From Polynucleobacter sp. 78F-HAINBA (lineage in GTDB: Bacteria > Pseudomonadota > Gammaproteobacteria > Burkholderiales > Burkholderiaceae), in NCBI RefSeq assembly GCF_018882325.1, contig NZ_JACVOQ010000004.1:124001-188000 (forward strand): a DNA stretch of 64,000 nucleotides. Direction: 5' to 3'. The number at the start of each line of letters is the position of its first letter. Position 1 is the stretch's first letter. This document shows, piece by piece, positions 31,911 through 51,118 of the stretch. The notes under the pieces are model-generated. The model was given only the letters and a program-made list of their open reading frames with translations. It was not told the DNA's origin and searched no databases. A program made the position numbers and the translations under genes.

Positions 31911-31998
31911 TAAAGCCATAGCGATAAGCCTTGATTCTATTGAGGTTAATGGGATTTGATGCCTTTTCACTCATCTTTTCTTTTGTCTGTGTGACAAA

Positions 31999-32035: not shown

Positions 32036-32049
32036 ATCGCTGTTGAGTG

Positions 32050-32439: not shown

Positions 32440-32673
32440 ATGAACAATACCTACCTAACAACCGAAGAGCTATCGGCTCGCATCAAATATGACCCCCGCA
32501 CGATTCGGGATCAACTCAAGGATTCTGTCTTATTAGAGGGTCGCCACTATTTCCGCCCATTTGGGGGTCGCAAGATTCTCTACATCTGGGAGAACGTGGA
32601 GCAAGACATGTTTAAAGCCATGGCTGCAATCTCGGCGATTCCAATGACTCAAGGAGATGCCCTTTATGCCTAA
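32440..32673 (+). CDS. AlpA-like / excisionase-type DNA-binding protein
   Basis: A 77-aa protein with the MerR/AlpA-type winged-helix pattern: YLTTEELSARIKYDPRTIRD then RHYFRPFGGRKILYIWENVE, where the wing reads out DNA. Proteins of this type steer integrase or excision. AAGGAG lies upstream of the start. Its 3' end overlaps the integrase by 8 bases. Confidence 0.75.
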   Translation: MNNTYLTTEELSARIKYDPRTIRDQLKDSVLLEGRHYFRPFGGRKILYIWENVEQDMFKAMAAISAIPMTQGDALYA

Positions 32674-34225
32674 TATCCGCGTAAGAAAAGAAACGGGGTT
32701 GCTGTACTTTGACTTTCAATACCTCAAGGTACGGTGCCGCGAGCAGTCTCTATTAGAGGACTCCAAGCCCAATCGCAAAAAGATGCAAAAGGTCTTAGAT
32801 GAAATCCTAGGCAAGATTAAAAGCCATACCTTTTCCTATAGAGACTACTTTCCAAGCAGCAAACAGTTGCTGGCTATTGAATTACTTGAAAACGGATCGC
32901 CTCCAGAACCAATGCCAGTAGGGATCGACCCATATTTTAAGACTCAACCAGCCCCCATTTCAGCCCTCCCTGCGCAAGTTCAGGCTAACGGTCCTTTATT
33001 TTCCGACTTTGCCAATCAGTGGTATTCAGAGATGGAAGTAGGGTGGAAGCGTTCGCATAGAACGACTACCCGCGGTGTTCTAGATAGCTCCCTGATTCCT
33101 CAATTTGGCCCTAGACCCGTAAACGAGATCAAAAAGGGCGACATTCTGGCTTTTCGCTCCTCTTTAGCAAAGTTACCCGGAATTAAGAATAAGGAAAGCC
33201 TTTCCGCTTCACGTATTAACCACATCATGACCCCGCTGCGGATGATATTGACAGAGGCTGCCAACCGCTATGAATTTGCCCCGGCCTTTATCAATATCAA
33301 ACCCCTAAGAGTAGGCAAGACCGATGTTCAGCCATTCACGATGCAAGAAGTCCAAGACATTCTTCGCACGGTTCGAGCTGACTTTCGCAATTACTACATT
33401 GTTCGCTTTTTTACGGGAACCCGTACTGGTGAGATCGACGGCCTGAAATGGCAGTACGTTGATTTTGAACGTCGCACGATTTCCATCAAAGAGACGATTG
33501 TGAATGACTATGAGGAAACTCCCAAAACGGGAGAATCCGAGCGTGACATCCAAATGTCTCAGATGGTCTTTGATGCACTCTTGGCTCAACATAAAGTAAC
33601 CGGGCAGGGCGTCTATGTTTTTGCCACTAGCGCGGGAACACCCATTTCTCATCGCAATATTTCTAAGCGAGTTTGGTATCCACTCTTAAGATTGTTGGGC
33701 ATGAAAAAGCGAGTGCCATATCAAACTCGCCATACCTATGCCACCCTCATGTTGGCTTCTGGCGAGGCACCCGAATGGATCGCCCGTCAGATGGGACACA
33801 CCACTACCGAGATGCTCTTTCGGGTGTATTCCCGATTCATTCCGAACTTGACCCGTCAGGACGGAAGCGCCTTTGAACGACTCATGGCAGCGCAGATGCA
33901 AGACCAGCCACACCCCATTATTGACCCCCAATTAGTTAATGAAGTAAGCGCCCACTCAGGTATAAATCCCATCAGCATTGGAGTGAATCATTTACCGAAA
34001 ACTCAGAGTCGAGCAACTAAAGAAATTGAACAAGCGCCAGAATTACCTGAGCCCGAAACCCCAAAGCCTCCAGATGCACTGCCCAATACTCGAATCAATC
34101 CAAGTGCCGATGCTGCGCTGATCGCCAATCCTTGGCTAGAAATTGCCAAACATTCTGGTCTTTCTATGCCTCCTAAAGCCGCCCCAATCCCACCCTCAGA
34201 TCATCCAGCGGGAGACCTTTTATGA
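32666..34225 (+). CDS. Tyrosine recombinase/integrase with DUF3596-type arm domain
   Basis: Predicted site-specific recombinase of the element at tRNA-Arg. The N-terminal ~80 residues resemble the DUF3596 arm-binding domain, then a core-binding domain and the catalytic domain. Catalytic landmarks are the Arg of GTRTGEIDGLKW, the second box YQTRHTYATLM (where the first His is Tyr, a common variant), the GHTT His and the Tyr of FRVYSRF. The last ~130 residues are Pro-rich and look disordered. The start at 32666 is preferred over 32657 because AAGGAG abuts the earlier ATG. Confidence 0.92.
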   Translation: MPNIRVRKETGLLYFDFQYLKVRCREQSLLEDSKPNRKKMQKVLDEILGKIKSHTFSYRDYFPSSKQLLAIELLENGSPPEPMPVGIDPYFKTQPAPISALPAQVQANGPLFSDFANQWYSEMEVGWKRSHRTTTRGVLDSSLIPQFGPRPVNEIKKGDILAFRSSLAKLPGIKNKESLSASRINHIMTPLRMILTEAANRYEFAPAFINIKPLRVGKTDVQPFTMQEVQDILRTVRADFRNYYIVRFFTGTRTGEIDGLKWQYVDFERRTISIKETIVNDYEETPKTGESERDIQMSQMVFDALLAQHKVTGQGVYVFATSAGTPISHRNISKRVWYPLLRLLGMKKRVPYQTRHTYATLMLASGEAPEWIARQMGHTTTEMLFRVYSRFIPNLTRQDGSAFERLMAAQMQDQPHPIIDPQLVNEVSAHSGINPISIGVNHLPKTQSRATKEIEQAPELPEPETPKPPDALPNTRINPSADAALIANPWLEIAKHSGLSMPPKAAPIPPSDHPAGDLL

Positions 34226-35320: not shown

Positions 35321-35403
35321 AATACCGTCATTTATCATGATTTTTATAACTTACAGGCGCAAAGCGCCCATTAGCAACAGCATTGCAAATATCAGGAGTC
35401 TCT

Positions 35404-37173
35404 TTGAGCGACGCATCGACAATTTCAGCGAAAGTATCAGAACTCAGTAATAGCGCATGGTCAGTCGCCGACACGCTCTGGACAGCCTTTAGCAAAAGCG
35501 ACTGCGGGAAAATCATTCTTCCCTTTATGGTACTGCGTCGCCTGGACTGCCTTTTAGAAGACTCAAAAGCTAAGGTATTGAAGGCATCTCAAGGTATTAA
35601 CCCCGAAGCCTCTCCTGAAATGCGGGATAAATTACTCTTCAAAGCAACCGGCTTAGGGCTCAAGATCTACAACATTGCTCCCTTTACTCTCGAGCAAGTC
35701 AAAAACCAAGATCCAGCGCAACTCTTTGAAAACCTGGTTGATTACATCAATGGGTTTCCTCCGTTTTTACAAGACGTCTTTAACGCGCGCTTTGATCTCC
35801 CGGCCAAACTCAAAAAGATGGCCGATAAAGACAAGCTTTACACGGTCTTTGAAAAGATTTGCAGTATGGACTTGCACCCGGACAAGATCAGCAATCTTGA
35901 AATGGGCTATTTATATGAAGACCTGATCCGCAAATTTAGCGAGGCCGCTAATGAGGATGCTGGTGATCACTACACGCCACGAGAGGTAGTTACTCTAATC
36001 GCCAAGCTCTTGCTAAATAATGATCGCGAAGCCATCCAAGGCGAAGGTGTGATTCGCACCTTTTATGATGGCACTTGCGGTACAGGTGGCATGCTGTCGG
36101 TCGCTGAGATTGAAGCTAAGAAACTAAACCCCTCCATGATTGTTGAGCTCTACGGCCAGCAATTAACCGATGATGGTTATGCAGTTTGCGTCACGGATAT
36201 GCTGATGAAGGGGCAAGACCCCTTACGCATTAAGTTGGGTGACACACTCAAGAATGACCAGCACGCTGATAAGAAATTTCACTTTTGCATGGCCAACCCT
36301 CCATATGGAACCGAATGGAAAGATGCCAAAGAGATTATTGAGGCTGAGGCAAAAAAAGGGTTTGATGGGCGTTTTGGTGCTGGATTACCCAGAATCTCAG
36401 ACGGACAGCTTCTATTTGTTCAGCACTTTATTAGCAAGCTGCGCGATGACGCCATTGGTGGTCGAGCCGGGATTGTTTTAAATGGATCCCCGCTATTCAC
36501 TGGTGGCGCTGGCTCTGGTGAGTCTGAAATCCGCAAATGGATTATCGAAAATGATTATCTCGAGGGCATCATTGGACTTCCAACCGATATGTTCTACAAC
36601 ACCGGCATCAGTACCTATATTTGGATTTTGAATAATCGCAAACATCAAGAGCGCAAAGGCAAGGTGCGCCTATTGGATGCCAGCGGCCCTGAATTCTGGG
36701 AGCAAATGCGTAAATCGATGGGATCCAAGCGCAAGCAGCTAAGCTCACAAACCGTCGATCGAATTGTTGAACTGTTTTATTCGAATAAGCCGTCCAAGTT
36801 CGTAAAGGATTTTGATGATGCTGATTTTGGATATTCCACAATTACCGTGGAGCGCCCATTGCGCGATGAAAAGGGTGAGATTGTTATTTCCACAAAAGGC
36901 AAAACCAAAGGGAAGCCTCAGGCCGATAGCAATTTAAGAGATACAGAAAACGTACCTCTTAAGGAGAATATCCAAGAGTATTTTGAGCGAGAGGTTAAGC
37001 CTCATGCATCTGATGCATGGATTGATGAGGAAAAAACCAAGGTTGGCTATGAAATTCCATTTACTCGTCATTTTTATGAATATAAAGCCCCAAGATCTTT
37101 GGCTGAAATTGATGCAGATCTGAAGAAGGTGACGGCTGAAATTCAGGCATTATTGAGTGAGGTAGCGGGGTGA
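35404..37173 (+). CDS. hsdM: Type I restriction-modification methyltransferase subunit
   Basis: HsdM methylates adenine at the site chosen by HsdS, using S-adenosylmethionine. Motif I GTGG is at residues 226-229 and the catalytic NPPY at 298-301, preceded by the DHYTPREVVTLIAKLL segment typical of N6-adenine enzymes. The frame opens with TTG at 35383, but AGGAG stands five bases before a second TTG at 35404, which I take as the start (589 aa). It overlaps hsdS by 4 bases. Confidence 0.95.
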   Translation: MSDASTISAKVSELSNSAWSVADTLWTAFSKSDCGKIILPFMVLRRLDCLLEDSKAKVLKASQGINPEASPEMRDKLLFKATGLGLKIYNIAPFTLEQVKNQDPAQLFENLVDYINGFPPFLQDVFNARFDLPAKLKKMADKDKLYTVFEKICSMDLHPDKISNLEMGYLYEDLIRKFSEAANEDAGDHYTPREVVTLIAKLLLNNDREAIQGEGVIRTFYDGTCGTGGMLSVAEIEAKKLNPSMIVELYGQQLTDDGYAVCVTDMLMKGQDPLRIKLGDTLKNDQHADKKFHFCMANPPYGTEWKDAKEIIEAEAKKGFDGRFGAGLPRISDGQLLFVQHFISKLRDDAIGGRAGIVLNGSPLFTGGAGSGESEIRKWIIENDYLEGIIGLPTDMFYNTGISTYIWILNNRKHQERKGKVRLLDASGPEFWEQMRKSMGSKRKQLSSQTVDRIVELFYSNKPSKFVKDFDDADFGYSTITVERPLRDEKGEIVISTKGKTKGKPQADSNLRDTENVPLKENIQEYFEREVKPHASDAWIDEEKTKVGYEIPFTRHFYEYKAPRSLAEIDADLKKVTAEIQALLSEVAG

Positions 37174-38498
37174 GCTCTCGTTCTGCTTGGCAGCCATCAA
37201 AGCAGTCAATAAATATATCTTACCTTGGTAGCGTTCCTCCTGGGTGGACTATTGGGAGGCTTAAATACTCACTCTCAATCAACCCCTCTCATAAGGAGTG
37301 TGGGGCCGTTCCGTCAGGAACTAAGGTTCCTTTTTTTGCCATGGAATCCATTGGTGATGACGGGGCTTTAAAGATTGAAGCAGAAAAATCATTTGAAGAG
37401 GCCTCCAAAGCGTATACCTACTTTAAAAATGATGACGTGATAATCGCTAAAGTTACCCCATGCTTTGAAAATGGTAAGGGTGCATTGGTGAAGGGTCTAG
37501 AAGGCGGGTATGGGTTTGGTACTACAGAGTTAGTTGTGCTCCGGGCCTCTGAAAAGTTAAATGCTAAATTTTTGTATTACATCTCGTTATCAAATGAGGT
37601 GCGGCATGGCGGCACCGCATTTATGACTGGAGCTGGTGGCTTAAAGCGTGTTCCAGATGATTTCTATCTGAATCTAGTTTGGCCTTTGCCATCGATCTCT
37701 GAGCAAATTAAAATTGTTGGTTTTCTCAATAATGAAATAGAAAAGATTGATGCATTAATTGAAAGACAAGAACGCCTAGTTGAACTTCTTAATGAAAAGC
37801 GTCTAGAGGTAATAAGACATGCGATTACGAAAGGGATTGATCCGGATGTTCGTCTCAAAGAGTCTCGCATCCAATGGATTGGAAAAGTCCCCGAAGGTTG
37901 GGCAGTTAAGCAATTAAAGTGGATAACCCCGATTAAGCGAGGAGCCTCCCCGAGACCCATCGATGACCCAATTTATTTTGATGATGAAAATGGGGAATAT
38001 GCCTGGGTCCGAATATCCGATGTTACTTCTTCAAATATATATCTTGAACAAACCGAACAAAAACTTTCAGCATTGGGGGCGTCCTTAAGCGTGAAATTGG
38101 AGCCCGGAAAATTATTTCTCAGCATTGCAGGTAGTGTTGGGAAGCCTTGCATTGCAAAAATTAAAGCATGCATCCATGATGGATTTGTTTATTTCCCTAA
38201 ATTTAATGGAAATAATATGTGGCTGTATTACATGTTTGAAACAAAGTTACCATTTGGGGGGCTTGGAAAAATGGGGACCCAGTTGAATCTCAATACCGAC
38301 ACAATTGGTTCTATTTATGTACCAATGCCGCCCGAGAACGAGATAGAAAAAATCATTTCGCATATTGAAGAGAAGTTCGCTAAATTTAATATGCTGATTT
38401 CTAAATCAAATAAGTCAATTGAGCTTTTGAAAGAGCACCGCTCAAGCCTTATCTCCGCCGCCGTAACCGGGAAAATAGATGTAAGAGAAGTCGCGTAA
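37170..38498 (+). CDS. hsdS: Type I restriction-modification specificity subunit
   Basis: HsdS holds the DNA-recognition function. The 442-aa protein has two target-recognition domains, each followed by a helical spacer (EIEKIDALIERQERLVELLN around 190-210, and EEKFAKFNMLISKSNKSIEL near the end). The second domain starts at WIGKVPEGWAVKQLKW. The GTG start overlaps the hsdM stop. Both halves look intact. The recognised sequence should be bipartite but cannot be read from the gene. Confidence 0.95.
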   Translation: MSSRSAWQPSKQSINISYLGSVPPGWTIGRLKYSLSINPSHKECGAVPSGTKVPFFAMESIGDDGALKIEAEKSFEEASKAYTYFKNDDVIIAKVTPCFENGKGALVKGLEGGYGFGTTELVVLRASEKLNAKFLYYISLSNEVRHGGTAFMTGAGGLKRVPDDFYLNLVWPLPSISEQIKIVGFLNNEIEKIDALIERQERLVELLNEKRLEVIRHAITKGIDPDVRLKESRIQWIGKVPEGWAVKQLKWITPIKRGASPRPIDDPIYFDDENGEYAWVRISDVTSSNIYLEQTEQKLSALGASLSVKLEPGKLFLSIAGSVGKPCIAKIKACIHDGFVYFPKFNGNNMWLYYMFETKLPFGGLGKMGTQLNLNTDTIGSIYVPMPPENEIEKIISHIEEKFAKFNMLISKSNKSIELLKEHRSSLISAAVTGKIDVREVA

Positions 38499-38504
38499 AT
38501 AACT

Positions 38505-41462
38505 ATGACAACCAACTCAATCTCCAAAGCAAAACTCCATACCGAAGAAGCCTTCGAGCAACACTTTGTTTCTCAGTTGGTTGGGCGGCAATCCTATCTT
38601 GAGCGCCAGGATTCAAATTACGACAAAGATTTAGCGCTCGATAAAGATTTGCTAATTGAATTCATTAAAAAGACTCAGCCAGAAACCTGGCATGTCCTTG
38701 AAGGCAAGCTTGGAAGCAAGGCCGCAGAAATGCTCTGCAAAGAGATTGATCGAGTTCTTAAGAAGAAAGATATCTTATCCGTTCTGAAAGAGGGTGTGCA
38801 ATTTACTTGGTCACCAAGTATCAAGCTTTGCTACTTTGAGCCTGCCAGCAATATTAATCCCAATCTGGAAAAACTCTTCCAAGCAAATACGTTGAGCGCA
38901 ATTCGTCAGGTTCACTATTCCACCCGAAATAACAACTCTATTGATGTTGTCCTGTTTCTCAATGGCATCCCAGTTGTCACCCTTGAACTTAAAAATGCTC
39001 TGACGGGACAAACTATTGCCAATGCAATGAACCAGTACAAATATGACCGTAAGCCTGCTGGAGAGACCTTACTTGCCCCAGGTCGAGTTTTAGTTCATTT
39101 AGCCGTGGATACGGATGAAGCTGCAATGACCACCAAACTGAATAATGGCAAGACTGAGTTTTTGCCGTTAAACAGAGGCAATGTGGGTCGCTCTGGAAAC
39201 TGCGCGATCCCCGATGAATTTAAAACGGCTTATCTCTATCAAACAGTTGATGGCCAGCCAGCCATTTTGTCAAAAGAAGTGCTTCTAGATATTATTGGCA
39301 ATTTCTCACAAAAAGATGGCGACAGAATCATCTTTCCGCGGTTTCATCAGATCGATGCGGTTCGCAAACTCTTGGCTGACTCTAAATCGAAAAAATCAGG
39401 GCAGAAGTATCTCATCCAACATTCCCCCGGATCAGGCAAGACCTGGACTATTTCTTGGGTGGCTGCTGGGCTAGCCAAGCTGCATGATTCAGAAGATAAG
39501 AATGTCTTTGACTCAATCATCATCATTTCGGATCGCACTGTCTTGGATGGCCAACTCCAAAAGGCAGTTCGTAAGTTAGGCATTAGTACCAACTACATTG
39601 AAACGGTCGATAAAGGTTCTAAGCAATTACGTCTTGCCCTCGAAAACGGCAAGAAGATTATTGTGACTACGATTCAAAAGTTCACGACCGAGACCATTTC
39701 AGAAATGAACTCAATGAATGGCAAGCGCTTTGCCGTCATCATTGATGAGGCCCATTCTTCCCAATCCGGCAAAGCAGCCCAAGGCGTGCAAGATGCATTG
39801 TCTGATACCTCTGAAATTGAAATCATTGCCGATGAGATTGCTAAATCCCAAGCATCCAAGCAAAAGAGCGACAACATTAGTTATTTGGCTTTTACGGCCA
39901 CTCCAAAAAATGTGACCTTAGAGGTGTTTGGCACCCGAGAAACGCAAGACGCTATTCCCAGGCCGTTTCATGAGTATTCCATGCGCCAAGCAGTCGAAGA
40001 GGGTTTCATTTTGGATGTTCTTCAAAATTACACGACCTACTCAAGCTATTACGAACTCGAAAAGGTGATTGAGGATGATCCTCGCTTTAAGGGCTCCAAG
40101 GCAGCCAAAAAAGTTGCTAGATACGTTGCGTTATCCACGGTAGCCCAAAAAGCAGCTGTGATTGTTGAGCACTTTAATAAACATGTCAAAAATGAATTGG
40201 ATGGCCAAGCCAAAGCAATGATTGTGTGTCAAAGCCGTGAACACGCTTTTAGACATTATGAAGCAATTAAAGGCTATATCAAAGATTGCGGCTACAAAGG
40301 CCTTGATGCGTTGATCGCCTTTTCTGGCGAACTCATTGTTGATAGTCAAGAATATACAGAAGTTGGTCTGAATGGCTTTGCCGAAAGCAAGCTGCCGGAA
40401 ATGTTTGATACAGAGAAGTATCAAGTATTGATTGTTGCCAATAAATATCAGACCGGCTTTGACCAGCCTAAGATTTGCGCCATGTACATTGACCGCAAAC
40501 TTGATGGGCTGCAATGCGTTCAGACCTTAACAAGGGCCAATAGAATCTATCCTGGTAAATCGGCAGATAGCATTTATATCCTTGATTTTGCTAATGACAT
40601 TGAAGATATCCGGGAGGCATTCAAAAAGTATTTTGATGTCACTGAATTAGAAAGCCTGACCAATCCTGAGCAAATTTATGAGCTGAAATCGCTCATAATG
40701 GATTCTGGCTTTGTGGATCAAAACTCTATTGATAATTTTGCGCAGATCTTCTTCCAAGGCGAGATAAACACTTCTGATAGAGCAAAGCTCGAAGGCATTA
40801 TTAATAATGCGGTCAATAGCTACAACACTGCTGACAAGGGCTCTCAAGACGAGTTCAGGCAGGCGGTAAAAAGTTTCGTACGGTTTTATAGCTTCATTAT
40901 TCAGGTCTATCCTGTCTCAGATGTCAGTCTGGAGTCTTTATATTGGTACGCCTCTTGGTTATCAAGAAAGTTAAAAAATACAGCCACCGGCGGAGGCCCT
41001 GAATTAACCAATGAAATGATTCGGCTGAGCAAGCTTCGGATCGAAGAGAAAGAAAAAGGGTCCGCTACTCCTGAGGTTGGCGATACGGTCCCGCTTGATG
41101 GCATCACCGCCTTTGGTGTGAATGCCAAACCATCCGAAGACGAAGAGAAAGAGCTTTCCCAAATCATTAAAGATTTCAATGATCGTCACGGCACTGAATT
41201 TACTGAGGATGATTTGATCCGCATTGGCATGCAAGCAGAGAAAGTTGCCAATGAAATGAGCGCAGTGATTAAAAATAACCCCGTGGATGTCAGCCTTGAA
41301 ACCTTTGCCGATAAGTTGTTCGATAAGATGGCCGAGGTTCGTGAATCTGAAAAAGATCTCGATAACATCATGACATCGGACCAAGATTCATGGATGAAGC
41401 TGGCCTCTTTGATGTTAAGGCATAACAAGCGACGTCTTGATGGCGCAACTCAAGTCTTATAG
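38505..41462 (+). CDS. hsdR: Type I restriction endonuclease subunit
   Basis: HsdR translocates and cuts unmodified DNA. The 985-aa protein has the N-terminal PD-(D/E)XK site (D147, E161, K163 in TLELKN), Walker A GSGKT at 309-313, DEAH at 414-417, and the motif YLAFTATPKN. Helicase motif VI appears as QTLTRANRIYPGK. The C-terminal helical part contacts HsdM. All catalytic residues are present, so the system appears active. It starts 6 bases after hsdS. Confidence 0.95.
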   Translation: MTTNSISKAKLHTEEAFEQHFVSQLVGRQSYLERQDSNYDKDLALDKDLLIEFIKKTQPETWHVLEGKLGSKAAEMLCKEIDRVLKKKDILSVLKEGVQFTWSPSIKLCYFEPASNINPNLEKLFQANTLSAIRQVHYSTRNNNSIDVVLFLNGIPVVTLELKNALTGQTIANAMNQYKYDRKPAGETLLAPGRVLVHLAVDTDEAAMTTKLNNGKTEFLPLNRGNVGRSGNCAIPDEFKTAYLYQTVDGQPAILSKEVLLDIIGNFSQKDGDRIIFPRFHQIDAVRKLLADSKSKKSGQKYLIQHSPGSGKTWTISWVAAGLAKLHDSEDKNVFDSIIIISDRTVLDGQLQKAVRKLGISTNYIETVDKGSKQLRLALENGKKIIVTTIQKFTTETISEMNSMNGKRFAVIIDEAHSSQSGKAAQGVQDALSDTSEIEIIADEIAKSQASKQKSDNISYLAFTATPKNVTLEVFGTRETQDAIPRPFHEYSMRQAVEEGFILDVLQNYTTYSSYYELEKVIEDDPRFKGSKAAKKVARYVALSTVAQKAAVIVEHFNKHVKNELDGQAKAMIVCQSREHAFRHYEAIKGYIKDCGYKGLDALIAFSGELIVDSQEYTEVGLNGFAESKLPEMFDTEKYQVLIVANKYQTGFDQPKICAMYIDRKLDGLQCVQTLTRANRIYPGKSADSIYILDFANDIEDIREAFKKYFDVTELESLTNPEQIYELKSLIMDSGFVDQNSIDNFAQIFFQGEINTSDRAKLEGIINNAVNSYNTADKGSQDEFRQAVKSFVRFYSFIIQVYPVSDVSLESLYWYASWLSRKLKNTATGGGPELTNEMIRLSKLRIEEKEKGSATPEVGDTVPLDGITAFGVNAKPSEDEEKELSQIIKDFNDRHGTEFTEDDLIRIGMQAEKVANEMSAVIKNNPVDVSLETFADKLFDKMAEVRESEKDLDNIMTSDQDSWMKLASLMLRHNKRRLDGATQVL

Positions 41463-42256: not shown

Positions 42257-43123
42257 TTAGCGTGAGTGCATCATCACATCATCAATAACGTCACCATCTG
42301 CAATACTAAATAAAATCATCTCTACCTTAGTGACGCCAAAATCATCATCAGCTCCAAATAATTTGATTGCAATCTCCTGAAGTAGGTTGCAGTAGCTTTG
42401 GTATGCATAATCCTGGGCAATATAAACGACCTTTCCCAGAGAGGTGACCATTGAGGACTTCATTGATTTATCGCTACTCATTCTCTTCTCAAGCTCTTCT
42501 TTAAAGGCTTGAATAATTTTGGGGCGGCCATGAACTCTTAGATAAAGGTCCTGCTCGTAGGAGAAAAAATTAATCAAAGAATTTCGACCGCTTGAAGGTG
42601 GGAAAAATTTCCCAGCGTGGCCAGACTCCAATAAAAACCAATTAAGACTATAAATGACTCTTACATCATAAATTGCTCTCGTTTTTGGGAACCGAAATGC
42701 GATTACTTTTGACCAACTAGAAATTCTCTCAAAAGTAAATTTTTCTAGACTCTCAGCATGGGCTTTAATTGCATTGAGTACACCGTCAGTCAAAACATCA
42801 TCTTTCCCCGTCTTAATGCCGCCCCAATCCTTGACTATCCACCGATACATAACTTGACTTATAACAGGATCGCTATCACTTAGTTGCCCTTCAATCCACC
42901 TCCTTAAGGCAATCGTCTTGCCGTAGGAATTAGTTACATCTAAGGATAAATGCTGCTTGAGAAATTCCTCGAATTCTTGCTTTAATATTTCTGGAAGTGC
43001 CGGGAGATTCCATTTATATAATTTTGATAAAGCTTCTGGACTTGAATATTTCTCAACTCTTTTCGAAACATTTTGAATTATTGGATTAGAAAATATTTGC
43101 AACTTTTTATTTTGTACTATCAA
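42257..43123 (-). CDS. Hypothetical protein, convergent with the hsd operon
   Basis: I do not recognise it. The 288-aa protein is soluble, with no signal or membrane segment, and is rich in Trp/Tyr/Lys in its middle (WSKVIAFRFPKTRAIYDVRV). It starts with TTG at 43123, with AAGG eight bases upstream. Low GC relative to the ribosomal block suggests acquired DNA. It faces the membrane-protein gene end to end. Confidence 0.6.
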   Translation of the reverse strand: MIVQNKKLQIFSNPIIQNVSKRVEKYSSPEALSKLYKWNLPALPEILKQEFEEFLKQHLSLDVTNSYGKTIALRRWIEGQLSDSDPVISQVMYRWIVKDWGGIKTGKDDVLTDGVLNAIKAHAESLEKFTFERISSWSKVIAFRFPKTRAIYDVRVIYSLNWFLLESGHAGKFFPPSSGRNSLINFFSYEQDLYLRVHGRPKIIQAFKEELEKRMSSDKSMKSSMVTSLGKVVYIAQDYAYQSYCNLLQEIAIKLFGADDDFGVTKVEMILFSIADGDVIDDVMMHSR

Positions 43124-43188
43124 TTTAATCGCCTTAAAAATTTAAATGAAATTTTTCCTTGGGGAAACAATACAGCCTAGAATAAATC

Positions 43189-43923
43189 TTAAATACGTAT
43201 GGCCTCAATACAGTAAAAATCCCCAGAAATCGGCTGCCTCTCAAAATTGATAGTCTTTTCTATATTTGAACTTAAAGCACTGATGAATGCTTCACTCGGT
43301 CGTTGCATCAGCCTATAGATAAATAGTTCATGACCTTGATGGTTGGCCAGTTCTAGTGCTGCCCCATAAGTAGGCTCAACTGATAAGTCTAACGAGAGGC
43401 TGCCATTATGTTTTTTAAGAGCCCTCCCCATGGCCAATGAAATAGTCTCCAAAGACAGATGAAGATGTCCATTAGTCTGCGCTAATGCCTCTACAGTCTC
43501 CCCTGATAAGTTTTGCACGGCGCCTAGATCTAGATTGGCTCCTGATGCACTGAGAATTTGGGCGTTTCCCCTGTCTAGGTAATATAACTTTTCAAAAATG
43601 AAAAATGGTGAATCAACCCATTTTGCAATGGCTCGCGCTAGAGTGGGCGTTAATTCCGTAAGACCCAAGATAACAAAGCCATAAGGTTTTTCAGAGAGAC
43701 ACTCAAATGCTGCAGGATCCGCATCTGAATAAGAGCTTAAATCTAGTATCGAAACGACTTGCGGCTGCGCCGGAGCTGGGCGTCTTGATATTTCGATGGC
43801 ACTAATTAAGTCAAGATAAGTCTTGTTGGGTGCTATGGGCGCCGCATTCAACATGCCATCAAATGGCAAAACCAACCCAATCATGGTTGACTGCTTAAGA
43901 AAATCTCGACGATTAAAGTTCAT
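43189..43923 (-). CDS. Tat-exported protein with degenerate leucine-rich-type repeats
   Basis: The N-terminus has a twin-arginine signal (NRRDFLKQSTMIGLVLPF), so export of a folded protein is predicted. The rest is built of about six to seven repeats of 20-25 residues of the form LxLxxLxxLxxxxAxALxxxxG, for example LDLGAVQNLSGETVEALAQ and LSLETISLAMGRALKKH. This resembles an atypical leucine-rich repeat seen in uncharacterised bacterial proteins. The start at 43923 fits the Tat signal; an upstream start at 43977 is less likely. Function unknown. It is divergent from the M41 protease gene. Confidence 0.65.
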   Translation of the reverse strand: MNFNRRDFLKQSTMIGLVLPFDGMLNAAPIAPNKTYLDLISAIEISRRPAPAQPQVVSILDLSSYSDADPAAFECLSEKPYGFVILGLTELTPTLARAIAKWVDSPFFIFEKLYYLDRGNAQILSASGANLDLGAVQNLSGETVEALAQTNGHLHLSLETISLAMGRALKKHNGSLSLDLSVEPTYGAALELANHQGHELFIYRLMQRPSEAFISALSSNIEKTINFERQPISGDFYCIEAIRI

Positions 43924-43943
43924 CTGCTGATTATTCTCATGAC

Positions 43944-44003
43944 TGCGACAGAATAAGTCGCATGATAAGCCTTGCAATACTGCATTGACATCGCAAGGTG
44001 CGA
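43944..44003. promoter_or_regulatory. Cluster of TGCGAC/GTCGCA operator-like motifs
   Basis: TGCGAC (43944-43949) and GTCGCA (43957-43962) form a perfect inverted repeat with a 7-base centre. TCGCA-AGG-TGCGA (43991-44003) is a second one, and a TTGTCGTAC half-site follows. They fill the gap between two divergent genes, so one regulator could control both. Confidence 0.5.
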
Positions 44004-44058
44004 CCTAATTTGTCGTACATTCATCCTAGACTGATGCTTTAGGAGGCGAACAGCATTT

Positions 44059-45471
44059 ATGGAACAACATCTTGAATCAATCACTGAAACGCAAATATCA
44101 ACTGAGCCAACGCTAAAGGCGCGTTATGCAGTGCTAAACAACTGGGTCGAGGATTTGAAAAAGGTGGCTCAAAACCCTGGCGATCAAAAAATTAGCTTAT
44201 TAACTGGTAGGGCAGCAATGATCGAGTGTCCCGACATTGCTGCTTGTCGACAAGTGCTTCCAAAAATAGCGCAGATGGCCAATATGCAATATATGACTCT
44301 GACGCCAGATGAAACTCTATCGTGGCTAAGCGGTGAACAGGATGGTCTTGATCCAATGAAAAGCAACCCCTCGGGCACACCGACGCTGGCATGCCTACCA
44401 ATGGAGTGTTTTATCAAGGCTGATGAAAAGAGCGACAAAAATCAATTTGGCTGGGATGTACCAAGCTGGCTTAACTTATCCAAATTACTTCGCGCAGCCA
44501 ATATAGATGCGCCCCTCATCATCGTAGTAATAGGCAAGCGATTCCTTGATCTCTCTGAAGAGTTGCGCTCGGCGTATGGGTTTGATCGCCACTTTTCTAT
44601 TCCTAAAGCAAGCCCTCTAGAGCATTATGAAGATTTTCTTGAAGAGGTTGATCTAGATTGGTTCGATAAATCAATCACTGAGTTCCGGGGAAAAGTGGGA
44701 ACCTTACTCTCAGCTGCCTTTCCAGATAAACGGCGTTTAGGTTTGTTATCGATGGGGATAAAGCGCCTTGCAATGCGTGAAGACAGGGTCATCTCTTATA
44801 AAGATCTCGTCACATTCTCAGCAAGGGGTACGGGAGATATAGTACCGTGGCCACACTTAAATGAAAAGAACCTCTATCGCACCGCAGTTCACGAAGCGGG
44901 GCATACATTAATTGCCATGCTCGATTCAAATGGCGCCAATGTCCCAGATTACGTAAGCATCTCGCCTGGAAAGGGATTTCTTGGGGTAACGATTGAATCC
45001 TATGGGTATCTGCATCAGGAGTTGGGATGTGATGCCTATCAAAACGGCAGACATTCAGTGAGAGTTGCCTTAGGCGGTAGAGCTGCTGAAGAGTTGGTCT
45101 TGGGTGTGGAGCAAATTGGCACTAGTGGACTGCGCTCGGACTTAGAAGAAATCAGCGGAAATGTCCGAGGCTTCTTTGCTGTTCATGGTATTTGCGTAGA
45201 TATAGAAGAAGCGCAACATACCGGCGTCAATCTTGCTGCGGTAGTAAATGGTGAGAGCGCTTCGGAGGCTGCCCATATTGAGCCTTTAATGCGAGCATAT
45301 ATCGAGCGCCAATACAGAAATACTCTAGATCAAATGCGTGCAAATCAAACTTTATTGGATGCTATTATTAAATTACTAATGAAAAATAGAGATATCTATC
45401 AAGACGATTTGCTATCAATACTGGCAGATCATCGTAGCGCATCAATTAATCCAGCTGCATTAGCCGCCTAA
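44059..45471 (+). CDS. M41 (FtsH-type) metalloprotease with degenerate AAA region
   Basis: The C-terminal half is a peptidase M41 domain: HEAGH at 278-282 gives two zinc-ligand histidines and the catalytic Glu, and D361 in SDLEEISG is the likely third ligand. The N-terminal ~200 residues resemble an AAA domain only in outline (APLIIVVIGKRFLDLSEELR, then FDRHFSIPKASP). No Walker A GxxGxGK, no Walker B DE and no membrane segment are visible. It is therefore predicted to be soluble and ATP-independent. It starts an apparent operon with a WYL regulator and a nuclease. Its substrate is unknown. Confidence 0.8.
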   Translation: MEQHLESITETQISTEPTLKARYAVLNNWVEDLKKVAQNPGDQKISLLTGRAAMIECPDIAACRQVLPKIAQMANMQYMTLTPDETLSWLSGEQDGLDPMKSNPSGTPTLACLPMECFIKADEKSDKNQFGWDVPSWLNLSKLLRAANIDAPLIIVVIGKRFLDLSEELRSAYGFDRHFSIPKASPLEHYEDFLEEVDLDWFDKSITEFRGKVGTLLSAAFPDKRRLGLLSMGIKRLAMREDRVISYKDLVTFSARGTGDIVPWPHLNEKNLYRTAVHEAGHTLIAMLDSNGANVPDYVSISPGKGFLGVTIESYGYLHQELGCDAYQNGRHSVRVALGGRAAEELVLGVEQIGTSGLRSDLEEISGNVRGFFAVHGICVDIEEAQHTGVNLAAVVNGESASEAAHIEPLMRAYIERQYRNTLDQMRANQTLLDAIIKLLMKNRDIYQDDLLSILADHRSASINPAALAA

Positions 45472-45500
45472 AAATTTTCTTTACATGAGCTCTCTAGCGA

Positions 45501-46505
45501 ATGCCCTCAAATAAAACCAGAAATTCCTTGGCTCGCCAATGGGAGCTCCTCAAGCTTTTGCCAACACGCACTGAAGGCAAAACTGCCAAGCAATTGGCCG
45601 AAGGTTTAATTGAAGCGGGCTATGAGATTAGTAAGCGTCAGGTAGAGCGTGATTTGCTAGATCTTCAAGAATTCTTTGGGCTGGAATGCGATGATGATCA
45701 GATGCCCTATAAATGGCGTTGGTCATTTGATAGGCCGGCGGATCTACCCGCCATTACTTTGGCCGAGGCATTGTCTTTAGTGGTTGTCGAAGACACCCTC
45801 AAGCCATTGCTGCCACTATCGGTTCAAAGAGCACTTCAAGCGAAGTTCTCCCAGGCAAGATCGCAACTTGCGATGATGTCCAAGAAATCGTCTACAGCTA
45901 GGTGGGCTGGCAAGGTCAAAACTGTGCCAACGACTTTGCCATTGCTACCCCCATTCATTTCTGAAGAGATATTAGAGGTTATTCAAAATGCTTTGCTGCT
46001 AGATGAGCAGATTGAGGCAACCTATCAAGGCATGAGCGATAAGGTGATTGAATTACGCCTGCATCCCCTTGCCATGGTGACTCGTGGCTCCGTTGTGTAC
46101 TTGGTGGCAACCGCAAAAGAATTTTCAGATGTGCGCCTCTATGCCCTGCATCGATTTAAAGCTGCGACGCGCACTTTCGAAAAGCTGAAGCCCCTAAAAG
46201 GCTTTAGTTTAGATAAATATATTGCTGATGGCGCGCTGCAGTTTGGCGAAGGTGGCGAAATTGAATTAACGGCCATCCTCTCCGATGAGTTGGCGCGTTT
46301 ACTATCTGAGACCCCAATTTCCGGAGATCAACTCCTAAAAGTAAAAGCTAGGCAGTGGCACTTAAAAGCTTCCGTCCTGGATAGCTGGCAACTGCGATGG
46401 TGGATTTTGTCGCACGGCCCAGGCATTCAAGTCATAAAGCCAGCTCCATTAGCAAAAGAAATTGAAAAGACATTAAAAGCGGCAGTAGCTCAGTATTCCA
46501 AATAA
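45501..46505 (+). CDS. WYL-domain transcriptional regulator
   Basis: A 334-aa protein with an N-terminal winged helix (AKQLAEGLIEAGYEISKRQV), a WYL domain in the middle (LRLHPLAMVTRGSVVYLVAT and FKAATRTFEKLKP) and a C-terminal WCX region. WYL domains are thought to sense nucleic acids or nucleotides, and many control phage-defence operons. It lies 29 bases after the M41 gene and 16 before the nuclease gene, so all three are probably one transcript. Confidence 0.88.
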   Translation: MPSNKTRNSLARQWELLKLLPTRTEGKTAKQLAEGLIEAGYEISKRQVERDLLDLQEFFGLECDDDQMPYKWRWSFDRPADLPAITLAEALSLVVVEDTLKPLLPLSVQRALQAKFSQARSQLAMMSKKSSTARWAGKVKTVPTTLPLLPPFISEEILEVIQNALLLDEQIEATYQGMSDKVIELRLHPLAMVTRGSVVYLVATAKEFSDVRLYALHRFKAATRTFEKLKPLKGFSLDKYIADGALQFGEGGEIELTAILSDELARLLSETPISGDQLLKVKARQWHLKASVLDSWQLRWWILSHGPGIQVIKPAPLAKEIEKTLKAAVAQYSK

Positions 46506-46521
46506 TTTACCGGTGCGCTCC

Positions 46522-48498
46522 ATGCCAAGATACCTCACAAAGTCCCGTTTCAAAACTGCAGTCGAGTGTCCTACAAAACTTTTCTATACCGGCAAAGCGC
46601 GTGAGTATGCCAATGCGATGAGTGAAGATTCGTTCTTGCAGTCTTTGGCTGAGGGAGGATTTCAGGTTGGGGAGTTAGCCAAATTAATGTATCCGGGTGG
46701 TGTTGAGATTACCGCCGATACCCATGAGACTCAAGTTCAAGAGACCAACCAATACCTTCAACAAGAAAATGTGACGCTATATGAAGCTGCCATTCGACAT
46801 GAAGATCTATTTATCCGCGTTGATGTCATCCGCAAACAAGGCAATCGGATTGAGCTAATTGAAGTTAAGGCAAAGTCTTTTGACTCTACCGAAGAAAATG
46901 GATTTCGGGGAGCTCGTGGTGGAATTAATAGTGGAATGCTTCCTTATCTGCAGGATGTCGCATTCCAGACCTATGTCTTTAAATTAGCATTCCCTGAGGT
47001 GCAAGTAGATAGCTTCTTATTGATGGCCGATAAATCGAAAGCTTGCTCGGTTGATGGATTGAATCAATTTTTTAAGATAACCCACGCAAATGGCCGATCC
47101 GGAATTGAGGTGTCGTCTTCTGCAAATTCAAACTCCATTGGTGACCCCATTCTTACAGCAGTTAACGTCAATGAATATGTCCATGAGATTTTGACTCTGC
47201 CTATCGAAGCTCCTGGTGTTGTTAGCTTTTTCCCCGATGTCGTTAAGCGGTGGTCCGATGCATATGTAGGTGATAAAAAAATTGATTCTCCCGTAGGCGC
47301 TCATTGCGTCAGATGCGAATTTCGAAATACCCCCACCCAGCAAAGCTTAAAGAGTGGCTTATTTGAGTGCTGGCAACGGGCTAAAGGCTTGAGTGCCCAA
47401 GACTTTAATGATGGCATGGTATTGGATGTTTGGAGCTTTAGGGGTAAGGAGAGACTTATTCAGGAGGGCACCCTGAAATTCTCTGATATCGAAAAATCAG
47501 ATCTAGGTTGGCAAAATGAAGATGATGACTTATCCCATGGTTTAAATGGTAGGCAGCGCCAATGGATGCAGGTATCAAAATCCATGCCTGAAGGCAGAGA
47601 CTTTTACCTGAATAGGGAGTTGATTGAAGCCGCCGCGTCTCAATGGCAATACCCGCTGCATTTCATTGACTTTGAAACGGCTAGAGTGGCGATTCCATTC
47701 TTTAAGGGTCAAAAGGCATATTCCAATATCGCTTTTCAGTTCTCTCACCATGAGATGGATACCGATGGCACCGTAAAACATAAAAATCAATTCCTCAGCG
47801 TTACCCCCGGAGTTAAGCCTAATTACGAATTTGTCAGAGAGCTCAAAAATGCCGTTGGAGATAGAGGAACTGTATTTATGTGGTCTCCCCATGAGAACAC
47901 CACATTAAACGCCATTTTGGATGAATTAAATGAAGACCCTGCGCCGCCAAACGATGCAGATGAATTGCGTGGATTTATATTAAGCCTTACTCGCAAGAAA
48001 GATGGTAGCAAGACAGCGCGGGAAGGATCTAGAGCAATGGTAGATCTTTGCGAGCTATCGAAGAGGGCATTCTTTCATCCGCTCACCAAGGGTAGTAACT
48101 CCATCAAGAAGGTATTGCCGGCAATCATGACTTGCTCTGACTACATTAAAGAGAAGTACTCGCCTCCAATTTACGGTGCCAAACCCGGAATGACAAGTCT
48201 GAACTTTTCAAATCAAATCTGGTGGCAAAGTATTGATGGGAAAGTATTGGATCCCTATAAGCTGCTGCCACCAGTATTTAATGATGTATCTGAATCAGAG
48301 CTTGAGCAAATAGAGTCTGATGAGGAGTTTGAAATCAGTCAAGGTGGTGCAGCTTCAACAGCCTACGCAAGACTGCAATTTGAGAGTCTCCCTGATAACG
48401 AGCGAACCTATATTAAGAATGCCTTGCTAAGATATTGTGAATTAGATACCTTAGCAATGGTGATGATATTTCAAGGGTGGAAAGAATCTAATTATTAA
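46522..48498 (+). CDS. Dual nuclease: Cas4-like PD-(D/E)XK plus DUF2779 (DnaQ-like) domain
   Basis: Residue numbers count from an in-frame GTG at 46513; ATG at 46522 is the more likely start. The N-terminal part has a Cas4/RecB-like site (D104, E117, K119 in IELIEVKAK) and four cysteines placed like a 4Fe-4S cluster (C19, C265, C268, C286). The C-terminal DUF2779 domain has D386/E388 in HFIDFETARVAIPF and D645 in YCELDTLAM, resembling DnaQ-family exonuclease motifs I and III. The combination suggests processing of DNA ends. It follows the WYL gene and overlaps a convergent gene by 11 bases. Confidence 0.8.
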   Translation: MPRYLTKSRFKTAVECPTKLFYTGKAREYANAMSEDSFLQSLAEGGFQVGELAKLMYPGGVEITADTHETQVQETNQYLQQENVTLYEAAIRHEDLFIRVDVIRKQGNRIELIEVKAKSFDSTEENGFRGARGGINSGMLPYLQDVAFQTYVFKLAFPEVQVDSFLLMADKSKACSVDGLNQFFKITHANGRSGIEVSSSANSNSIGDPILTAVNVNEYVHEILTLPIEAPGVVSFFPDVVKRWSDAYVGDKKIDSPVGAHCVRCEFRNTPTQQSLKSGLFECWQRAKGLSAQDFNDGMVLDVWSFRGKERLIQEGTLKFSDIEKSDLGWQNEDDDLSHGLNGRQRQWMQVSKSMPEGRDFYLNRELIEAAASQWQYPLHFIDFETARVAIPFFKGQKAYSNIAFQFSHHEMDTDGTVKHKNQFLSVTPGVKPNYEFVRELKNAVGDRGTVFMWSPHENTTLNAILDELNEDPAPPNDADELRGFILSLTRKKDGSKTAREGSRAMVDLCELSKRAFFHPLTKGSNSIKKVLPAIMTCSDYIKEKYSPPIYGAKPGMTSLNFSNQIWWQSIDGKVLDPYKLLPPVFNDVSESELEQIESDEEFEISQGGAASTAYARLQFESLPDNERTYIKNALLRYCELDTLAMVMIFQGWKESNY

Positions 48499-49891
48499 AA
48501 AACTCTGTTAAGCCATGGTTTAGCTTTTCCGATAGATCTTTTACCCATTTTTTGAAAACAATTTGATGCATTGAATCTGCTTGAAGAATTTTTTCTTCGA
48601 TCCAGACCTTGGGATCTTCCTGATTTACTGGCTTAATGCCAGACTTTGAGTTAGTTAGCGCATTCCAGTACAAATTGCATGCGGGCTTGTGTTGTTCGCC
48701 GTTAATTATTTTCCACAAGTAATCGTAAATTTCTTCGCGTTTTTCCTGAGATCGCATTGGACCAAGAATTAGAGCTGCCGAACATTTTGTTGTATTGCTC
48801 GCATCATCAGAAACCATTTTTATTGCAAAATTTATCGGGCATTTAGTACTTTTTAGCCAAACTCTATCTGGGGCATCAGCGTATTTAATAAGCTCAGATC
48901 TATTTCCATCCGACAAAAGATTGAAGTGGAAGTATGTTCTGTTGGAGGCCTCCCTATAAAAAAGTAAGATTTCGCCATCATCAATAGGTGCCAGATTTTT
49001 CATTTGAGGCAACTTTCTTTCCCACCACTCTAATGTTTTGGATCTCGCGTCATGTTTAAATTGGTACAAATAATCAAGCGCTTTTTTATGCTTGATGTAT
49101 ATCGACCCAACTGAATCTATGGATATATCTTTGCCTTTGAGGTGCTCTACATAGGATTTAATTTTTTCATCCTGCGTTAACTCAACGGCCAACGCGTCGG
49201 CATTTATGGCTTGTGGATCATTTTCACTTAATAAGTCTCGATAGTCATTCAAGATTTCTTTGATATAGGTAGAGCCTTTATCAGATAAATTCTCGATTAT
49301 CAAATCCACCGCGGGTAATACTGTGTTTTTATAGAGGATATTAGTCCAGTCGGCATCATCCGGCTTTTCCTCTTCAAGAGTTAGGTAAATTTTATAAATA
49401 TTTTTAGAGGGGAAGCACATCTCTAGTAATTTGGTATATTTTTCTAGCTGGTTTTGACCTTGAGATGCATCAATCTTATTTTCAATGGCGATAATGACTT
49501 CCTGGGGGGAGCCCGTGGGGACTGCGCCGCGATAGGGAATCCTAATTAAGCAGTCAAGCGTACCTTTTTTATTTTTCCCGTTTGCCTCGAATTTAGAAAA
49601 TTCTGCATCCACTCTTGCAAACGAAAGATCCAAATCCAATACGCTTGGAAAATCACTCAGAGCATCTAGCGATGTGACGGTTCTTAAAAGAAAGTTTTTA
49701 AGAAAGGCGTCGCCTAGATCATGCGATTCATTTGGGTTTAGTAAATAAGTTAGGAATTTAGTATGTTTAACCTCTCTGCGACCCATATCAGTGGCCTCAA
49801 AGATATTAAAGCGACTTAAGACTTGGTCAAGTTTTATAAATTCTTCTTTTGCTAATAATACGTTCTCTATGAATTTATTCTCTAAGCTCAT
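48488..49891 (-). CDS. PD-(D/E)XK nuclease superfamily protein (PDDEXK_4-like)
   Basis: A 467-aa protein. The N-terminal EVKHTKFLTYLLNP segment (40-53) and DAFLKNFL are typical of the PF14281 group. The catalytic set is D113 in TLDCLI, then E137 and K139 in EVIIAIENKID. The long C-terminal part is of unknown fold. Such proteins are frequent in defence islands but poorly characterised. It is convergent with the dual-nuclease gene. Confidence 0.78.
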   Translation of the reverse strand: MSLENKFIENVLLAKEEFIKLDQVLSRFNIFEATDMGRREVKHTKFLTYLLNPNESHDLGDAFLKNFLLRTVTSLDALSDFPSVLDLDLSFARVDAEFSKFEANGKNKKGTLDCLIRIPYRGAVPTGSPQEVIIAIENKIDASQGQNQLEKYTKLLEMCFPSKNIYKIYLTLEEEKPDDADWTNILYKNTVLPAVDLIIENLSDKGSTYIKEILNDYRDLLSENDPQAINADALAVELTQDEKIKSYVEHLKGKDISIDSVGSIYIKHKKALDYLYQFKHDARSKTLEWWERKLPQMKNLAPIDDGEILLFYREASNRTYFHFNLLSDGNRSELIKYADAPDRVWLKSTKCPINFAIKMVSDDASNTTKCSAALILGPMRSQEKREEIYDYLWKIINGEQHKPACNLYWNALTNSKSGIKPVNQEDPKVWIEEKILQADSMHQIVFKKWVKDLSEKLNHGLTEFFNN

Positions 49892-49990
49892 TGGGTCGCC
49901 TTCCTTGGTATTTATATGTAGTGGTTCTAATAATCTGCTGCAATCCTACTAACTCTATATTCAATAACTACATAGCCTAAGCACTTAAAA

Positions 49991-50512
49991 CTACTTGATG
50001 GCTGCCTGTAATTGTTTGTATAACGTCACCGTATCCTGCCGATATTTTTTATCCAACACTTCTTTTTTGTGCCGATATTGACTCTCGGCGACTGATATCT
50101 CCTTTTCCCGTCGCCCTTCAATAGTGGATCGCTCGGTTAGATATAGCCTATGGTTCGCAGCCTCGGCATCTTGATATTCCTTTTGGGTCATATTAGAACT
50201 TCGACTACTCATATTGGAGAGTAACTCGGCACTTTGCCTCGTAGCCGACATATTAAGAACCTCAAGTGCGTTGCTATATTTTCGCGTGATATTTCTGACC
50301 TCATCTCTGTGCCCAACCTCTAGATCACGATCTTCAATTCTACGATTAGCGAGGATAAATTTTTTGGTCTCTTGAATGCAATTTGTTGAGGTTGGGTTAC
50401 TTTCACAGTATTTCATACCAACCAATACACCACCAATGCCCAACGCAAGTGCGACATAAAAAATAATGATGCCACTTACTACAAACGAAATAATCCCCAG
50501 AATTATGCCCAT
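49991..50512 (-). CDS. Membrane-anchored coiled-coil hypothetical protein
   Basis: I do not recognise the family. The 173-aa protein has one long membrane segment (about residues 2-32), two cysteines just after it (C36 and C45), and a charged, mostly helical remainder, likely a coiled coil (EISVAESQYRHKKEVLDKKY). It is a single gene. Confidence 0.6.
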   Translation of the reverse strand: MGIILGIISFVVSGIIIFYVALALGIGGVLVGMKYCESNPTSTNCIQETKKFILANRRIEDRDLEVGHRDEVRNITRKYSNALEVLNMSATRQSAELLSNMSSRSSNMTQKEYQDAEAANHRLYLTERSTIEGRREKEISVAESQYRHKKEVLDKKYRQDTVTLYKQLQAAIK

Positions 50513-50671
50513 CTCATCTCTCTTTTACTAATCTGCACCTTAGTAACACTACATGGACCATGAGACAAAATGAGTCGCACTGTAATGTTCGATATGTTCT
50601 GCCACTTCCTGGAAAAATTTAAATGGAACAATCCCTGTAGAATAAATTTTTGGGGCTTTAGAAGGGCGCAG

Positions 50672-51118
50672 ATGAAAACACTTTATATAGATATGGACAA
50701 TGTTTTAGTGGATTTCCCAAGTGGAATTCAAAGAACGTCGGAACACATCCAAGATGAATTTGATGGCCGCTTAGATGAAGTTCCTGGGATCTTTTCTTTA
50801 ATGGATCCTATACCAGGGGCGATTGCTGCCTATGAAGAGTTATCCACTTTATTTGATACCTACATTCTTTCTACCGCACCTTGGGGTAACCCAAGTGCTT
50901 GGTCCGATAAATTGCTTTGGGTAAAAGAGTATCTAGGCAAGCCAGCCTATAAACGCCTTATTCTGAGTCATCATAAAAACCTCAATGACGGAGACTTCTT
51001 GGTAGATGACCGCCTTAAAAATGGAGTTGATTGCTTTAAGGGTGAACATATTCATTTCGCTACACCGGAGTTTCCTGACTGGAACGCAGTAGTGAGTTAT
51101 TTGAAGCTAAAAGCTTAA
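50672..51118 (+). CDS. 5'(3')-deoxyribonucleotidase-like HAD phosphatase
   Basis: Predicted to dephosphorylate deoxyribonucleoside monophosphates (NT5C family). The 148-aa protein has the nucleophile motif LYIDMDNVLVDF with D7 and D9, ILSTAPWGNP (Ser/Thr motif II), and FLVDDRLKNG (motif IV). The frame is open 102 bases upstream, but AAGG with proper spacing and the family start place it at 50672. A nucleotide-depleting role in defence is conceivable but unproven. It is followed after 8 bases by the DUF4236 gene. Confidence 0.82.
   Translation: MKTLYIDMDNVLVDFPSGIQRTSEHIQDEFDGRLDEVPGIFSLMDPIPGAIAAYEELSTLFDTYILSTAPWGNPSAWSDKLLWVKEYLGKPAYKRLILSHHKNLNDGDFLVDDRLKNGVDCFKGEHIHFATPEFPDWNAVVSYLKLKA

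Follow-up and report, generated by a model that had tools for sequence, protein, structure and literature searches.

Do an FtsH-like protease, a WYL regulator and a predicted nuclease encoded side by side work as one unit? The question is raised by a locus of Polynucleobacter sp. 78F-HAINBA, for which we analysed a 64,000-nucleotide stretch of contig NZ_JACVOQ010000004.1 (positions 124,001 to 188,000, hereafter the window) from a genome of 2.05 Mb (G000). An earlier note on this DNA had described the M41 peptidase, WYL and DUF2779 genes as three closely spaced, co-oriented genes of a candidate new system, and the open reading frame (ORF) coordinates (Table 1) bear out this layout: all are on the forward strand, with gaps of 29 bp (M41–WYL) and 16 bp (WYL–DUF2779) in which no terminator-like site is listed. 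Our preferred reading, to which we assign a probability of about 0.55, is that they belong to a nuclease defence module regulated by WYL and carried on a mobile island, with the M41 protein as a co-regulated accessory. Its genes are probably switched together through matching control sites, as are known anti-virus gene sets. The three genes first described stand, and the picture has to be widened beyond them: the divergent genes at 42257–43923 have homologues in related modules, the M41 protein lacks Walker A and B motifs, and two palindromes precede its gene.

As we picture it, the WYL protein would bind pairs of the palindrome TGCGAC-N7-GTCGCA and control both the M41–WYL–DUF2779 run and the divergent gene pair, and it would be switched by a nucleic-acid ligand from infection or DNA damage (single-stranded DNA, as for DriD). 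The DUF2779 protein would then be the effector, degrading nucleic acid with two nuclease sites, a role proposed because both sites are conserved. The M41 protein may be a zinc protease that works without ATP on a pseudo-AAA scaffold; its target is a guess, most likely a protein of the module or of the invader. Control by the WYL protein, as inferred from sequence, is the best supported of these steps.

Control sites and the WYL regulator

The 135-bp divergent region between 43923 and 44059 holds two operator-like palindromes, TGCGACAGAATAAGTCGCA (43944) and TGCGACCTAATTTGTCGTA (43999), the first of which falls inside the adjoining ORF with a start at TTG 43977 and outside it with a start at ATG 43923. 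In a second genome of the same genus (G024) the 199-bp region between the GIY-YIG and M41 genes likewise holds a pair, TGCGTCATATTAAGTCGCA and TGCGACCTATTTTGTCGTA, with at most one mismatch. At genome-wide rates the probability of such a pair is ∼5e-8 in the window and ∼1e-7 in G024; because the window supplied the motif, the G024 value alone is an independent test. A related module in a genome of another family (G149) has one site 10 bp before its DUF2779 ORF and one perfect site after the gene for P288, a 288-aa protein also encoded in the window. Two short DUF2779 copies on different contigs of G149 (L219 and L230) are each preceded by an identical 19-bp palindrome. The third window copy lies 6.6 kb further on, between a 173-aa gene (followed by the PDC-S26 gene) and the NT5C-like gene; as this is again a divergent region (50513–50671), the regulon may span 42257–51118, with the PDDEXK_4/PDC-S26 gene as a possible member.

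The palindrome was then surveyed in 102 loci that had been selected for DUF2779 or WYL, using nine other spacings and eight control sequences for comparison. Twenty-six sites were found at spacing 7 (seven of them from the window, G024 and G149 loci), versus 0–5 at the other spacings and 1–8 for the controls, and 14 of the 26 lay within 1 kb of a WYL or DUF2779 gene (controls, 0–4). Sites flank the WYL gene on both sides in one locus (L098), stand 34 bp before the gene that precedes WYL and PDC-S26 genes in another genome (G019), and, on a Rhodoferax plasmid that carries PDC-M27 genes, precede a two-AAA gene. In a tree of 39 WYL rows, several of them long-branched, a site occurred within 2.5 kb for 8 of the 19 members of the clade of the window regulator (P0002; support 96/98) versus none of the 20 outside it (Fisher, 0.0012), with clade rows L036 and L085, whose sites lie beyond 2.5 kb, scored as having none.

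Several observations weigh against reading these sites as operators of the WYL protein. Genome-wide counts at one mismatch or fewer (5 in G000, 5 in G024 and 11 in G149) are in part close to those of reversed controls (4, 1 and 9), so the signal is one of position, not number; of the five in G000, three fall within 6.6 kb of the window and the remaining two are inside ORFs. At zero mismatches among 61 related genomes, there is one copy in G000 and none in the other 36 same-genus genomes, including G024, and three genomes of other families have one perfect copy each, with control counts that are equal or higher. Half of the survey sites (13 of 26) fall inside mechanically called ORFs, some of them doubtful calls, and 11 of the 19 clade rows have no site within 2.5 kb. 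No site at one mismatch or fewer is present in three further loci or genomes with the M41 protein (L114, G009 and G130). The palindrome could also belong to a regulator other than the window WYL protein. At two mismatches, there are two matches in G009, one in G130 and none in L114; a search for inverted repeats in two L114 and two L086 regions returned only three self-overlapping ones, in L114. Promoter-like matches were fewer than in shuffles: one ends at the first palindrome on the reverse strand and none lies before the M41 gene.

The regulator itself matches Pfam WYL (9.9e-12) and WCX (8.7e-9), both above cut-off. Its N-terminus has no Pfam helix-turn-helix match above cut-off, and the profile matches there, to Fur/ArgR chains, are weak (E ≥ 0.25). 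A single-sequence search of the PDB returned nothing at E ≤ 0.001, and no copy was found in the viral contigs scanned. By profile, the closest solved chains are the WYL proteins 7u02 and 7tzv (E 2e-12) and PafBC (1e-9); further matches are 7qfz (0.014), 7tb5 (0.05) and CapW 9c5g (0.18). We take 7tzv, 7u02, 9cu3, 9pfq and 8tp8 to be DriD chains and 7qfz to be BrxR. The proximity to PafBC and related chains would also suit a DNA-damage regulon in which a WYL damage sensor induces a repair nuclease of Cas4/DnaQ type and a protease, and Cas4-like and DnaQ domains do also act in repair. We consider this the least probable of the alternatives and an unlikely one, given the sparse distribution of DUF2779 (see below) and the island and prophage locations of the genes.

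Recurrence of the gene set

M41 searches covered overlapping samples of 61, 399 and 369 genomes at E ≤ 1e-30, with matches in FtsH-length frames set aside, and found the Walker-less protein only in G000, G024, G009 and G130. The earlier note had set co-occurrence elsewhere as its refuting test, and the possibility that the three genes never co-occur in another genome is rejected by two cases. In G024 all three lie within 5 kb, in a prophage between the terminase large subunit and portal genes, with M41 on one strand and GIY-YIG (PD-T4-3-like), WYL, short-form DUF2779 and P288 genes on the other. L114, a Burkholderiales metagenome-assembled genome (MAG) found through DUF2779, has a looser set of M41, two-AAA ATPase, WYL and DUF2779 genes within 9 kb on mixed strands. 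The M41 protein is nevertheless rare, and lies within 5.5 kb of none of the 80 long-form DUF2779 loci compared.

Those loci score best among 269 relatives and many sit on short contigs; neighbour counts are therefore lower bounds and biased to the long form. Within 5.5 kb of DUF2779 we counted WYL at 24, two-AAA ATPase at eight, PDDEXK_4 at five, and neither M41 nor P288 at any; the L114 M41 gene, at 5.56 kb, falls just beyond the limit. Walker-less M41 was absent from the fetched stretch in 23 of the 24 loci with WYL. Within 2.5 kb, WYL was present at 16 of the 80 loci, or 15 with an 80-aa ORF limit, which excludes a terminal fragment in L080, and WYL gene density was 0.28 per kb within 250 bp of DUF2779 versus 0.007–0.03 per kb at 2.5–10 kb. 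WYL with DUF2779 is thus the commoner pair. Among other modules, G149 has DUF2779, a DnaQ–repeat protein fusion, WYL and a longer P288-like protein within ∼6.3 kb, without M41, and two same-genus genomes (G004 and G018) have a short DUF2779 with a WYL gene of the other WYL clade ∼4 kb off, again without Walker-less M41. The rarity of M41 implies that it is dispensable for WYL–DUF2779 pairs, while its position behind palindromes in two genomes suggests co-regulation.

Three further observations concern DUF2779 neighbourhoods. On a Rhodoferax plasmid (L036), the PDC-M27 genes A, B and C follow immediately after AAA, DUF2779 and WYL genes; in a Methylotenera MAG (L099, 9138–9974) a homologue of the G024 GIY-YIG protein (phmmer 3e-51) directly precedes a long DUF2779 gene; and macro-domain-like genes lie near six, and ADP-ribosylglycohydrolase-like genes near three, of the 80 DUF2779 loci (L077–L156; both by eye).

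The divergent gene pair adds a further thread. P288 has no Pfam match below E 0.01; its predicted structure is all-helical (predicted local distance difference test (pLDDT) 69, predicted template modelling score (pTM) 0.72) and has no PDB match at E ≤ 0.001. At E ≤ 1e-5 it occurs in 3 of 399 genomes of the order (G000, G024 and G149), and these homologues sit in three WYL–DUF2779 modules. Relatives of 25–33 % identity occur on six plasmid records, and one of three plasmid stretches fetched with them has a GIY-YIG gene. Viral contigs gave no P288 match with query A2 and one with query A7, and phage records gave none. In one viral contig (L223, 2438–3214) a P288-family protein has a terminase and, judged by eye, a recombinase in its vicinity, which recalls the terminase-side module of G024. 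The second divergent gene encodes a repeat protein with a twin-arginine translocation (TAT) signal score of 0.015, under the cut-off, and its only homologue among the loci then compared is the DnaQ fusion inside the G149 module.

Some of this distribution speaks against a coherent module. Only six of 61 genomes have a DUF2779 match and two of those six carry the M41 protein; no WYL or DUF2779 gene accompanies P288-like proteins in the three plasmid stretches; and between the window and G024 identity is 59 % for WYL and 57 % for P288 versus 31 % for M41 and 27 % for DUF2779, so the latter partners may be exchangeable island cargo. The genes could then be chance neighbours in a defence island, acquired separately, one of them bringing WYL, with no shared function. 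Island gene shuffling and the unequal divergence of the pairs would fit, as would the P288 relatives found apart on plasmids and the M41 genes of G009 and G130, around which the 12–28 kb fetched contain no WYL or DUF2779. We nevertheless hold chance to be improbable: in G024 the same gene types are arranged differently and the palindrome pair occupies the corresponding position, and P288 homologues occur in three WYL–DUF2779 modules.

The M41 and DUF2779 proteins

In the M41 protein, the one Pfam match (Peptidase_M41, 3e-15, above cut-off) covers residues 268–452. The zinc site is present, with HEAGH at 278–282 (H278, E279 and H282) and D361, which we take to be the third ligand as in FtsH structures; all four residues are invariant in the five full-length relatives (window, G024, L114, G009 and G130). 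None of the five has a Walker A motif (G-x4-GK[ST]), and in profile alignment the Walker B stretch of FtsH falls on residues without DE. The alignment (hhalign, 99.8 %) begins directly behind Walker A and extends across the protease; the FtsH profile was built from seven full-length sequences, the 7 of 27 fetched loci that passed a length and motif filter. The AlphaFold model (pLDDT 73.9, pTM 0.63) has FtsH 3kds as its top Foldseek match (E 9.8e-17, 453 columns), with domain packing uncertain because the TM-score is only 0.45. Residues 1–50 are polar by eye, and PADLOC returned no family at E ≤ 1. An ordinary FtsH is rejected by the missing Walker motifs, the length of 470 aa and an NCBIfam FtsH score of 49 bits, far under the 600-bit cut-off. 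Judged by its residues, the protein is an FtsH relative that has kept the protease site and lost the ATPase motifs.

Elsewhere this form was scarce. A single-sequence scan of genome contigs found none, the tblastn matches, in 6 phage and 23 plasmid records, all fell short of 80 % query coverage, and among 39 loci from an alignment scan of viral contigs Walker A was absent only in four contig-end fragments (ORFs >250 aa). Walker-less M41 and a two-AAA ATPase are both present in L114 and in G009 (one 28-kb contig, ∼20 kb apart), and it is no more than a lead that the ATPase might serve the protease in trans. The G009 contig (C56; L013 and L237) also holds caspase-like, patatin-like and large repeat ATPase genes (by eye).

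Might proteolysis be the switch, with M41 cutting the WYL regulator or activating the nuclease? Such arrangements have precedents (CapP cuts CapH, and ImmA cuts ImmR), the zinc ligands are intact in all five proteins, and M41 belongs to one operon-like run here and lies divergent from the WYL run behind the same palindromes in G024. Against this, none of the 80 long-form DUF2779 loci has M41 in the range in which 24 have WYL, the protein lacks both partners in the stretches fetched from G009 and G130, and Pfam assigns it to M41 and not to an ImmA-type family; we therefore doubt a protease-gated module. Equally tentative is a bolder form of our preferred reading, an undescribed anti-phage system, mobile on chromosomal islands and a prophage, whose single operator-bound regulon would unite a WYL sensor, the helical 288-aa protein, a nuclease with both Cas4 and DnaQ sites, and a pseudo-AAA FtsH protease that would need no ATP and act as the switch or as a second effector, with a decayed FtsH in place of the active two-AAA ATPase of some other modules.

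The DUF2779 protein matches PF11074 at 1.9e-21 (77.1 bits; cut-off 23.3). The two nuclease sites claimed in the earlier note are confirmed at residue level in the window protein and the best 80 of 269 relatives: the Cas4-like PD-(D/E)XK residues D101, E114 and K116 and the DnaQ-like residues D383, E385, D508, Y638 and D642, eight positions in total, are kept in 81 of 81 sequences. Cysteines C16, C262, C265 and C283 are each present in 80 of 81 and may hold an Fe–S cluster. No PADLOC family was found at E ≤ 1, nor any PDB match to the profile at E ≤ 1.

Island surroundings and known systems

We read the surroundings of the module (Table 1) as a defence island. Upstream lie tRNA-Arg (31835–31910), a tyrosine integrase (32657–34225) and an HD protein with a Type I restriction-modification set (35383–41462); downstream follow the PDDEXK_4/PDC-S26 and NT5C-like genes, a DUF6036 nucleotidyltransferase and AbiJ_NTD4/PDC-S32 at 56868. 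With the prophage location in G024, these genes form the defence context of the module. No repeat of ≥ 16 bp of the tRNA-Arg region (31835–32100) was found beyond 32200 that could mark an attachment (att) site, so the right island end is not placed. A gene resembling the window NT5C-like gene (by eye) is present in the G024 island (L012, 13647–14093).

Table 1. Features of the module and its immediate flanks, in window coordinates
Feature	Position	Strand	Remarks
P288, 288 aa, no assigned family	42257–43123	−	Homologues in G024 (57 %) and G149 (36 %) modules
Repeat protein, TAT-like N-terminus	43189–43923	−	Mechanical ORF start TTG 43977; ATG 43923 preferred
Operator-like palindrome 1, TGCGAC-N7-GTCGCA	43944–43962		0 mismatches
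Operator-like palindrome 2	43999–44017		One mismatch
FtsH-derived M41 protein, 470 aa	44059–45471	+	M41 zinc protease domain behind AAA-like domain without Walker A/B
WYL-WCX transcription regulator, 334 aa (P0002)	45501–46505	+	Pfam
DUF2779 protein, 658 aa from ATG (GTG 46513 possible)	46522–48498	+	Cas4-like PD-(D/E)XK and DnaQ-like motifs, four conserved Cys
PDDEXK_4 nuclease, PADLOC PDC-S26	48488–49891	−	Pfam and PADLOC; convergent with DUF2779
173-aa protein	49991–50512	−	Possible leader gene of PDDEXK_4 unit
Operator-like palindrome 3	50561–50579		One mismatch; within divergent region 50513–50671
NT5C-like 5′-nucleotidase	50672–51118	+	Pfam; start ATG 50672 preferred

WYL regulation of defence operons (BrxR, CapW) and the prediction of DUF2779 as a nuclease are already known. 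The M41–WYL–DUF2779 set, the palindrome and an ATPase-less FtsH were not met in the literature searched, which did not cover bioRxiv, and a word search of the main text of a paper on BREX-related systems (PMC12839542) found none of DUF2779, M41, Cas4, DnaQ or FtsH. With a WYL regulator and a defined palindrome linked to it, the function of DUF2779 becomes open to direct experiment, and a palindrome common to a WYL clade might serve to locate other defence regulons. Whether the AAA scaffold suffices to keep an M41 protease active could be examined in an FtsH relative that has protease residues and no ATPase motifs.

Among known systems, the passages on these families in PMC3985635 place DUF2779 (F.17) and COG2251 (F.13) within the RNase H-like superfamily and presume DUF2779 to be a 3′–5′ exonuclease with a DUF83 PD-(D/E)XK domain; the DnaQ-like and PD-(D/E)XK parts are shared with the window protein, and those passages mention no WYL or protease partner. 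BrxR of bacteriophage exclusion (BREX) and CapW of cyclic-oligonucleotide-based anti-phage signalling systems (CBASS) are, in the sections on them, WYL regulators with palindromes in the promoter region of defence genes (PMC9122601, PMC9122588), which resembles the window, where a WYL-WCX regulator lies beside defence genes and palindromes precede the operon. The window protein matches them weakly (E 0.014 for 7qfz and 0.18 for CapW 9c5g), its partners are a DUF2779 nuclease and a protease and not BREX or CBASS genes, and its palindrome (6-bp arms, 7-bp spacer) is rejected as the pEFER BrxR box, described there with 11-bp arms and a 5-bp spacer. DriD, whose WYL domain binds single-stranded DNA according to the passages on it in PMC12340889, and PafBC give the best-scoring solved WYL chains (E 2e-12 to 1e-9); both are activators of damage genes, and ligand switching of the window protein is an analogy only. 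For IetAS, a two-AAA ATPase matching part of the IetA models lies at the eight long DUF2779 loci counted above, for example as WYL–AAA–DUF2779 in L086; none was found in G000 or G024 at E ≤ 1e-40, and no search was aimed at IetS-type subtilases. FtsH, finally, shares with the window protein the M41 domain, HExGH with the third zinc ligand, and the profile and fold matches, and differs in having the Walker A and B motifs that the 470-aa window protein lacks; plant FtsHi proteins, called pseudo-proteases in the title of one paper, would be the reverse case.

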